A stretch of DNA of 64,000 nucleotides from Saccharospirillum mangrovi (GTDB taxonomy: Bacteria > Pseudomonadota > Gammaproteobacteria > Pseudomonadales > Natronospirillaceae), in the NCBI RefSeq assembly GCF_003367315.1, contig NZ_CP031415.1, positions 1,486,001 to 1,550,000 of the forward strand, read 5' to 3'. The notes below the pieces were generated by a model. It did not search any database, was not told where the DNA came from, and worked only from the letters and a program-made list of their open reading frames with translations. Numbering within the stretch: position 1 is the first letter of the stretch; every line of letters begins with the position of its first letter. Shown piece by piece: positions 55,857-58,970 of this stretch. The translations under genes were made by a program, and so were the position numbers.

Positions 55857-56146
55857 GCAAACCTCTGTTGATCTATGACGACTCACACGAACCAGCCAGA
55901 GCGGCATGACGGCATCAAACAGGTATCGAGTTTAACCAAGGCCGAAAGAAATTTGGCGCAGGAAATATGGATCAGTGGAAGAAAAAAGGAAGGATGGGTG
56001 TCACAAAAAATAGACGTTTTTGCGATTGGGTTTGGAGGGTGGATCCAATTTGTTGGTTTAATTTTTTACTAAGCTAGATAGTGGTTAATGACGGTATTGG
56101 TTCATTGGGAATTATGCTGATGAATCGTCGGAGAACATAAATGCAT
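55857..56146. other. AT-rich junction before the integrase remnant
   Basis: About 290 bases with no convincing gene. A short frame (55875-56072) has no match I know. This is where the base composition changes to that of the island. Confidence 0.5.
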
Positions 56147-56713
56147 ACCGCTCAGCAAAGCCCAGTTTGATGCCATCTATGCCATTGCTCCGGACTGGAT
56201 GCAGGTCGCAATGGATCTGGCTCTGATCTCACTGCAGCGCCGTGGTGACTTGGTGCGTGCCAGGTATGATCACATTGAAGGTAACATCTGGCAGGTGATT
56301 CAGTCGAAGACCGAAAAGCACGGCCATCGAGCATTTTTGAATATCACGATGGGAGAGGGGTTACAGGAGGTGATTCAGCGGTCCAGATCAATTGCACCGG
56401 TCTGTCCGTTTATTTTGCGTCGTGTTCCAGAGCGGAAGAAGGCGGAAGCTCTTGATCATTGTGCGCAAGTCACTCCAGATAATCTCAGCAAGACCTTTGC
56501 TGGTCTTCGTAATTCACTTCCAGAGTTCGCGCGATGAAGAAAGAAGAGCGGCCAGGGTTTCACGCCATTCGTGCACTCGGTGGACACTTGTATCTATTGG
56601 CGGGGTTTGAAGACGAATATGTTAATCAACTCTATGGACATACTACGCAAGAAATGTCTGATGAGTATACCGATCAACATTTAGAATGGACCGAGGTGAA
56701 TGCTGACCTCTAA
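56147..56713 (+). pseudogene. Remnant of a phage-type tyrosine integrase
   Basis: The C-terminal catalytic domain is split over two frames. The first fragment (56147-56537) reads LSKAQFDAIYAIAPDWMQ, then LALISLQRRGDLVRARYDHI (Arg box) and KTEKHGHRAFLNIT. The second (56534-56713) reads GFHAIRALGGHLYL (His-x-x-Arg), LYGHTTQEMSDEY with the catalytic Tyr, and ends WTEVNADL. Losing one base near 56530 explains the break: EFAR and MKKEERPGFHAIRAL would otherwise be continuous. The N-terminal arm and core-binding domains are missing. Without repair it cannot be active. Confidence 0.88.
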
Positions 56714-56766
56714 TCATTAAGTATTGATGCTAATTTCAAGGCAGGAGATGAAGATTCTCTAGATGC

Positions 56767-57474
56767 TCACTTAAAATTCTCAGCAACGATCTTCTGGTAC
56801 TGAATGATGTCACTATCTTCGGGTAAACCACCCATCCGTAGCCAAAATAGCATTTCTTCCAGCAGAGACATGGCTTCAGCTGACAACATCAATCCAGTTG
56901 GATAATACGCAGATTGAGCAACACCCATTGGTTGTAGTTGATCTAGCCTTAGGATCGATTCAGGTGTGCTCGACCCCGGGATCATGTCCCAGTGAAACTG
57001 AGGGTAGGTACAGTGTTGAACTCGCTGAATGAACTCTTCCTTAAAACCAAGCCGTTTGTCTGTTGGGTTGGCTCCGTAAAATGGTGCGACCAGCATTGTC
57101 GGTGCTGTAGAGTAATTTGGTTTGCCGCGCGTTAGTGTCTTTTCTACTAATGGACTTTTTTGGCTGAATACAATACATGGTCGTTTTTTTGCGCGGTGTG
57201 CGGCCCATACTTCATCATCGTGCACTGGCATACCGGCAACAGGAAGTCGGTCTCGCTTTAATCGTTCGCCTATTTTTAGTGGTGCGACCTCTACTACTGC
57301 ATGTCTGTGCTCAGTCGGTTGAGATCGGCCAACCGGCGTAAATGTATAAGGTGCCTGATCAAAATGATTTATGAAGGTGTAGACTAGCGCTCCACGGCAA
57401 GCATGGGGTGAATCTTGCTCTACCCACCAGTCACCAGCTGAAATCGTTTGAAGGCAAAACTCAGGGTAGCTCAC
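56767..57474 (-). CDS. Putative PemK/MazF-like toxin in a Panacea operon
   Basis: 235 residues from GTG 57474, with AGGAGG 4 bases upstream; longer frames with ATG at 57507 or 57546 overlap the antitoxin gene more. Residues 95-104 read AKKRPCIVFS and 172-181 ESILRLDQLQ, an order and spacing resembling PemK/MazF barrels (R-P-V-V-V-S ... S-x-L-x-x-D-Q). TMLVAPFYG (126-134) lies between. The rest is not familiar. The gene starts 14 bases inside the Panacea gene, so the two are coupled. Growth inhibition through RNA cleavage is inference. Confidence 0.6.
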   Translation of the reverse strand: MSYPEFCLQTISAGDWWVEQDSPHACRGALVYTFINHFDQAPYTFTPVGRSQPTEHRHAVVEVAPLKIGERLKRDRLPVAGMPVHDDEVWAAHRAKKRPCIVFSQKSPLVEKTLTRGKPNYSTAPTMLVAPFYGANPTDKRLGFKEEFIQRVQHCTYPQFHWDMIPGSSTPESILRLDQLQPMGVAQSAYYPTGLMLSAEAMSLLEEMLFWLRMGGLPEDSDIIQYQKIVAENFK

Positions 57475-58249
57475 CGTCCCTCCTAGTATCTGATTTCCAT
57501 ATCTCATCGGAGAACTTCGCCTCCAATGTTTTATCGGTAAATTCATCTCCTGCTAGGCTGTCCAGCCATCGCATTCCCTCGTCAAACACTTCGTCGTATT
57601 TCGCTTCAATGATTGGGGGAACTAGTTTAGGTTCAAAGCTCTTGTGGGCACGCTTTTCTCTTAAAGCCGCTATTGATGCATGAGCCTTTGCATTTTTCTT
57701 GGAATTCTTTTTTTCTAATTCCTTATTAGGTTTTTGCTGCACAGGGGGGAAATAGCTCTCCGCTGCATAGCTAAAATCAAGTAGCTCTTTAGGTGCAGCA
57801 TTCAGCATCGGCTCGGTCAAATAAACGGAATGCAATAGGCTATCTGTGTCTTTTGTATGGTTGTGAATGTCGTTCTTTAAGCGGAGCTTAATTGCACCGG
57901 GAATGTCGTTTGATACAGTTCGCAGCCTATCATCATCTGATATGCTCCATCGGTGAAATTCACCCGTTCCATAATCACTGTCTCCAGTATATTTCCGCGC
58001 CATAATTGCTTGCATGGCTGGTTCGATGCGGGAGTGAACTTCTTGTGACCAGGGGCCGAAGTTATAGAACTGCCAGTCTATTCCCGTGTAAGTTTCACCG
58101 CCATTTCTGCGTGCGTAGTAGTAGTCGGCCAAGTAAACATACTTAAGCAAATGTATAGGGCCAAGACTACGATCAGTGAAGTCGTCTTCTTCGCCAGCAA
58201 CGAGAATGCTGTACTGGATCAGTAGGTCAATGCGGGTAACGTTAGGCAT
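57461..58249 (-). CDS. Panacea (SocA/DUF4065) domain antitoxin
   Basis: 262 residues. The N-terminal half carries the Panacea core (LLKYVYLADYYYARRNG near 34-50, FYNFGPWSQEV near 61-71). The middle (about 165-200) is a Lys-rich linker (KELEKKNSKKNAKAHAS), and the C-terminal 60 residues may hold the toxin-specific part. Panacea proteins are known as antitoxins (PanA) paired with many unrelated toxins (PanT). ATG 58249. The antitoxin comes first and the toxin second. Confidence 0.8.
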   Translation of the reverse strand: MPNVTRIDLLIQYSILVAGEEDDFTDRSLGPIHLLKYVYLADYYYARRNGGETYTGIDWQFYNFGPWSQEVHSRIEPAMQAIMARKYTGDSDYGTGEFHRWSISDDDRLRTVSNDIPGAIKLRLKNDIHNHTKDTDSLLHSVYLTEPMLNAAPKELLDFSYAAESYFPPVQQKPNKELEKKNSKKNAKAHASIAALREKRAHKSFEPKLVPPIIEAKYDEVFDEGMRWLDSLAGDEFTDKTLEAKFSDEIWKSDTRRDGELP

Positions 58250-58633
58250 TGTTTAAAGCTCGATTTGCCTGATTCGCTATGTTTAGTAGAACAACATCTC
58301 TACAGCATTAGCGATAGCTGTAAGACAAGTGCGCAGTCACACTAGTGTTTTTATCGGTCAACGTACAATAGCCTTTAGTCATAGTCGGCTGTAGTAGTGA
58401 CCTATGGACATGAGATCTTCTGAGAACAAAAAGGTCAAATCACCGTTCTAGCATGTTGCCTATACGGACGGGTCGCGAAGTGTAATGCCCTGAAAGTTTA
58501 TGTCAAAGGCCAACTTAAATTATTCCGACTCCAGCATCTGGACTATGAGAAGCTTCGAATAAAGACTTGCAGTAGAAGCTGTCAGAAGGCATTGGAATGA
58601 CTGTATATCGTCAAAATTTTGCAGTACCCCAGA
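58250..58633. other. AT-rich upstream region of the Panacea operon
   Basis: About 380 bases without a convincing gene. It includes the inverted repeat at 58301-58322. The ORF that crosses the tRNA (58520-58720) is judged spurious. Confidence 0.6.
58301..58322. repeat. Inverted repeat upstream of the Panacea antitoxin
   Basis: TACAGC (58301-58306) and GCTGTA (58317-58322), 10 bases apart. It lies 52-73 bases before the antitoxin start, a suitable place for an autoregulatory operator. Confidence 0.5.
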
Positions 58634-58669
58634 CACAAAAAAACCAAGCACCGCTAAGCGCTTGGTTTT
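58634..58669 (-). terminator. Terminator of the tRNA-Val transcript
   Basis: On the minus strand, AAACCAAGC / GCTTGGTTT stem followed by a long T-run, 12 bases past the tRNA 3' end. Confidence 0.8.
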
Positions 58670-58680
58670 AATGAAGAATT

Positions 58681-58757
<77 letters not shown>

Positions 58758-58970
58758 TCAGGTCGGGGCGTATATTACCTAGAAATTTCCCTCACGCAAC
58801 CCCCAGTCCTGAAAAATTTAACGGATTCAAACAGTTACCCGTCTTTTCCGGTGGCGGCAGCGTCGTTCTGGCGGGGCTGGTTTGTGTCGGTGGTTTGGTC
58901 GGCTGTGGTCGGTTTGATCCAGGTCAGTCATTGGCTTGAGGCGCCGTCTTAGACTGTGCCCAGGTTGTGA

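Follow-up and report, generated by a model that had tools for sequence, protein, structure and literature searches.

A Panacea-type gene pair with a predicted enlarged MazF-fold toxin candidate at a variable tRNA-Val site of Saccharospirillum mangrovi

The window analyzed here (the whole stretch of 64,000 nucleotides of Saccharospirillum mangrovi DNA) carries on its minus strand two overlapping genes, panA and panT, which are listed with their neighboring features in Table 1. The panT reading frame is open from an ATG at 57546, and the GTG at 57474 is its likely start, because it is preceded, at a distance of 4 nt, by an AGGAGG and because the relatives have a start codon at the aligned position, mostly with a purine-rich site. 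The alternative start at the ATG at 57507, with its conserved 'YGN', was ruled out, as two relatives (L010 and L012) have no start codon there; the 'YGN' upstream of the GTG looks conserved because the VWKS of PanA is conserved in the other frame. The open reading frames, the AGGAGG and the conserved start thus bear out an earlier note made on this DNA, which had described a second gene of 235 codons starting 14 bases inside panA. Upstream of panA, the consensus scan for promoters returned TTGACA-16-TACACT with a score no better than regional chance.

Table 1. Features of the panA-panT locus (window coordinates).
Feature	Position	Strand	Basis
panT, 235-aa toxin candidate, predicted expanded MazF/PemK-type barrel, GTG start	56767..57474	-	ORF, conserved start, AlphaFold2, Foldseek
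ESILRLDQLQ, with R176 and D178, aligned to Kid-type VRCDQ motif	56932..56961	-	conservation, hhalign
AKKRPCIVFS, predicted barrel strand 2 with R98-P99	57163..57192	-	11/11 invariant, hhalign
panA/panT overlap, 14 nt	57461..57474	-	ORFs
AGGAGG ribosome-binding site of panT, within panA	57479..57484	-	sequence
panA, predicted Panacea-domain antitoxin, 262 aa, first of pair	57461..58249	-	ORF, PF13274, profile-profile comparison
Panacea core of PanA, residues 34-79, LLKYVYLADYYYARRNGG to about EPAM	58013..58150	-	Pfam PF13274, conservation
Possible promoter TTGACA-16-TACACT, about 230 nt before panA	58479..58506	-	consensus scan
tRNA-Val(gac), island flank	58681..58757	-	ARAGORN
Tyrosine-recombinase (integrase) gene remnant, two frames	56199..56713	+	PF00589

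Between the tRNA-Val(gac) gene and an FG-GAP lipoprotein gene (55900-58760), the window holds the integrase remnant and the PanAT pair. The GC content from about 55.9 to 58.6 kb is 0.43-0.48, compared with about 0.55-0.62 around it, and the remnant matches PF00589 in two adjacent frames (profile positions 26-97 and 123-168), with neither match reaching the cut-off. No direct repeat of the tRNA-Val 3' end was found on the far side of the island. A genome of the same genus (L079, 3349-8200) has the same tRNA-Val together with the GGDEF-EAL and FG-GAP lipoprotein flanks and a different content between them, which by sequence comprises a histidine kinase, a response regulator and a GGDEF-EAL protein. 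The panA-panT locus is therefore a variable site beside a tRNA gene; the low GC content and integrase remnant, previously taken to fit mobility, are both present.

We then assessed the assignment of PanA to the Panacea family. Residues 34-79 of PanA match the Pfam profile PF13274 (SocA_Panacea) with E=4e-4 and 21.7 bits, which is below the gathering score of 25.7, but eight of nine PanA family members match the same profile at E<=0.01 and the core is strongly conserved across the nine. Comparison of the PanA profile with a profile of ten other Panacea proteins from the same order gave a score of 64.1 (probability 96%), far over the null from shuffled columns (12.9 ± 2.6, maximum 21.8). Taken together, the family matches and the profile-profile score support the prediction that PanA is a divergent Panacea protein, so that the Panacea (DUF4065/PF13274) domain expected of a PanAT antitoxin is found here; the assignment made from the sequence alone stands, although the core is not as clear as it had then been called. 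Past the Panacea part, PanA continues for about 100 partly conserved residues, with a Lys-rich linker followed by WLDSLAG...FS..VWKS..R (residues about 165-262). This extension is a candidate toxin-binding tail.

Searches for the family of PanT gave no significant match for the window protein in Pfam, NCBIfam, PHROGs, PADLOC or PDB sequences, and none for its relatives in Pfam, PHROGs or NCBIfam. The MazF/PemK profile PF02452 matched neither the window PanT nor its relatives even at E<=10, and the best hits to PDB sequences, a chemotaxis transducer (E=0.12) and thermolysin (E=1.3), are not believable. Alignment of the PanT family with a profile of true PemK/MazF proteins using hhalign gave a score of 26.3, which none of 200 shuffles reached (13.0 ± 2.3); this line alone is only suggestive, however, because the reversed alignment against PemK scores 21.2. 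In the alignment, RAKKRPCIVFS falls on the 'RP' strand of MazF/PemK, LVAPFYG on the third strand and SILRLDQLQ on IVRCDQPR of a Kid-like toxin. The two motifs that had been read as standing in MazF/PemK order, AKKRPCIVFS and ESILRLDQLQ, are real, conserved in all relatives and aligned with their proposed counterparts.

Structure prediction points to the same fold. With an alignment of 11 sequences, the best of five AlphaFold2 models of PanT had a mean pLDDT of 79.1 and a pTM of 0.73, while the remaining four reached pLDDT values of 59 to 69. An earlier model from nine sequences was poor (pLDDT 54.8), with MazF already ranked first, and the rise to 79.1 came upon adding two diverse members. Foldseek comparison of the model with the PDB placed MazF-type toxins at all of ranks 1-23 among 206 matches (E from 6.5e-3, probability 1.00 to 0.75), the top matches including M. 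tuberculosis MazF-mt9 and mt1 and E. coli MazF, with E values of only about 0.01 and TM-scores of about 0.5-0.6 of the target; after rank 23 the probability falls to about 0.02. The best fold match in a viral model library was a phage PemK-like protein (probability 0.99). The predicted model contains the SH3-like barrel and C-terminal helix of MazF-type toxins, and a MazF-type barrel is therefore supported by prediction as the fold of PanT, in agreement with what the earlier note had suspected.

The model also accounts for the ends of the protein, about 90 N-terminal and 55 C-terminal residues that had been left unplaced; neither end forms a domain of its own. A strand at residues 29-36 is best read as barrel strand 1, and it is followed by a long insertion (37-94) with two strands (43-48 and 60-65) and a low-confidence loop (75-84), which stands in place of the usual MazF beta1-beta2 loop. 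Strand 2 (95-102), strand 3 (126-134), a helix (146-153) and later strands at 160-164, 172-176 and 190-197 come next, and the model ends with a MazF-like C-terminal helix (199-214) and an extra one (222-234). We infer the match of these elements to individual MazF strands from the model.

The active site of MazF and Kid consists of the Arg of the 'RP' motif, a Thr of strand 3 and, in the Kid type, a further Arg and an Asp; both toxins cleave RNA and thereby halt translation. R98, P99 and R176 of PanT are identical in all 11 members of the family, and D178 is kept in ten and replaced by Glu in one. Where MazF and Kid have the Thr, ten members have Tyr and the other has Phe. RNA cleavage is the most likely activity predicted for PanT, although, because the catalytic Thr aligns with Tyr or Phe, this activity may be altered or lost, which leaves room for an altered chemistry or another target.

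Homologous panA-panT pairs were found at ten further loci, nine of them closer and one remote, giving eleven with the window, and they come from Gammaproteobacteria, Binatia and prophage contigs. The PanT family is rare: homologues occur twice in 295 genomes of the window's order, once among 399 from the phylum (this is the remote one) and in six viral contigs (five of them distinct), while a scan of about 85,000 species genomes with short peptide patterns, by which members can be missed, returned four, two of them the loci already found in the order. A tblastn search of 72,556 plasmids and 50,697 phage records returned no relatives. A weak match with stops (G513, L004) and two short matches (L024 and L025) were put down to chance.

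The coupling of PanT to a Panacea gene, noticed at first in the window only, holds throughout the family. Each of the ten homologues is immediately preceded by a Panacea gene, and in all eleven pairs, the window's included, PanA and PanT are encoded next to each other on one strand, with PanA first. The genes overlap by 11, 14, 17 or 20 nt in ten pairs, with a constant relative frame, and are 4 nt apart without overlap in the remote one. Scanning the viral contigs with PanA gave five contigs, every one of which also has PanT, and scanning with PanT gave the same five and a sixth in which PanA is present too. Moreover, the two proteins have diverged in step. Pairwise distances of PanA and PanT are correlated with a Mantel r of 0.96 (11 pairs; none of 10,000 permutations reaches it), and with r of 0.90 when the remote member is left out (reached by one permutation in 10,000). 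No partner swap was seen among the eleven pairs, unlike in Panacea as a whole, for which swapping is reported to be frequent (PMC8832971). In the viral contigs, genes for a terminase, portal, head protease or baseplate are found close to the pair, as is an excisionase-like gene at one locus (L003); the pair is mobile cargo of prophages and islands.

Panacea genes with other partners were also encountered. Among genomes of the same order, two have a different pair (L059, 1411-2280; L056, 967-1893), whose partner of about 141-145 aa has the conserved motifs RRxxxWSxxxxAGRHGLGxEKI and FYVLWFDxxFxLYDHG; in L059 the pair comes directly after an intact integrase-like gene. L061 (1411-2768) and L062 (1393-2863) have a Panacea gene immediately behind, or overlapping with, a gene whose product of 292-331 aa has apparent membrane segments at its N-terminus and a GAF-like part at its C-terminus; a 325-aa protein in L065 is similar to this product. 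In L057 (854-1935), L060 (1022-1986) and L066 (914-1980), the Panacea gene is followed by one for a protein of 122-175 aa with apparent C-terminal membrane helices, like the membrane-type PanT partners.

The best-supported reading of the locus, and in our judgment probably the correct one, is a PanAT module of type II in which PanT, a predicted toxin, has an enlarged MazF fold. PanA, with its Panacea domain and conserved C-terminal extension, would be produced first and bind PanT, which would probably be produced by translational coupling from its start site inside panA. Direct binding of the toxin by PanA has been shown for other PanATs (PMC8832971), and we infer direct neutralization here as well. 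Free PanT would most likely cleave RNA and halt translation in the manner of MazF and Kid, and as cargo of prophages and islands the pair would stabilize its element or act against other phages.

We weighed this reading against several others. That panA and panT are simply adjacent island genes without a toxin-antitoxin relation is very improbable: no close homologue is known to have been studied, but in Gammaproteobacteria, Binatia and phages alike, all eleven loci keep the two genes either overlapping or 4 nt apart, and the distances of the two proteins go in step. A pair devoted to phage defense rather than addiction, in which the C-terminal extension of PanA senses an infecting phage and frees the toxin, is doubtful yet deserves more weight. 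The extension of about 100 residues is conserved, the pair is carried as cargo beside prophage structural genes, and there is overlap between phage-defense systems and the toxin-antitoxin pairs of the Panacea network (PMC10440598); however, there is no PADLOC match and no recognized defense gene directly beside panA-panT, and genomic position alone is no sign of a trigger.

The activity of the toxin raises a further alternative. CcdB belongs to the same general fold class as MazF and is a gyrase poison without the RNase residues, and PanT could likewise be a genuine PanAT toxin that has a MazF-type barrel but is no RNase and acts on another target. The Tyr or Phe at the Thr position in all 11 members and the long insertion instead of the usual beta1-beta2 loop are consistent with this, whereas R98, R176 and D178 (Glu in one member), expected of a Kid-type RNase, are retained, and CcdB is absent among the 50 fold matches listed, the first 23 of which are taken by MazF; we regard a non-RNase PanT as unlikely. 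Equally speculative, and in our view improbable, is the idea that PanT belongs to a family of its own, whose RNA target or chemistry differs because the barrel has gained an insertion between strands 1 and 2 and has Tyr instead of its Thr, with the PanA extension holding the toxin in check like a MazE tail and phage infection as the trigger.

Panacea antitoxins neutralize many unrelated toxins, and how one domain manages this is an open question, for which an enlarged MazF-fold toxin that diverged in step with its PanA offers a clean case. The pair lets one ask which part of PanA neutralizes the toxin, the Panacea domain or the added tail, and whether RNA is still cut by a MazF barrel that has Tyr for Thr. 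It also adds a kind of prophage and island cargo for which the searched libraries have no family name.

Compared with MazF, PemK and Kid (PF02452), PanT shares the predicted barrel and C-terminal helix and, in order, the 'RP' of strand 2, a strand 3 ending in Pro and a VRCDQ-like motif, but it has no PF02452 match, is twice as long, has Tyr or Phe at the Thr position and is partnered by a Panacea protein rather than a MazE/PemI-like one. Contrary to what the earlier note had proposed, a MazF-like toxin does not by itself extend the PanAT repertoire, since such PanTs have already been reported: the PanAT survey of 2022 (Kurata et al.; PMC8832971) listed PemK-domain partners and validated two MazF-like PanTs. 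MazF/PemK also ranks among the commonest folds of the network published in 2023 (PMC10440598). With the MazF-like PanATs of the survey, which include those of Pseudomonas moraviensis and Bifidobacterium ruminantium, the window pair shares a Panacea antitoxin adjoining a toxin of predicted MazF/PemK-type fold, the lack of a domain match of the toxin by sequence and the antitoxin-first order, the common one among PanATs (PMC8832971). It differs from them in a PanT of 235 aa with a barrel insertion and an added C-terminal helix. L058, of all loci found the one nearest to the P. moraviensis type when judged by the PanA N-terminus only, encodes a 137-aa partner with no detectable similarity to the window PanT, a weak negative from one sequence. 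The PanT family may already stand as a cluster in the survey data (PMC8832971). What is new here is a PanT family unnamed in the libraries searched, of twice the usual length and with a changed active-site position, together with a PanA that has its own C-terminal extension.
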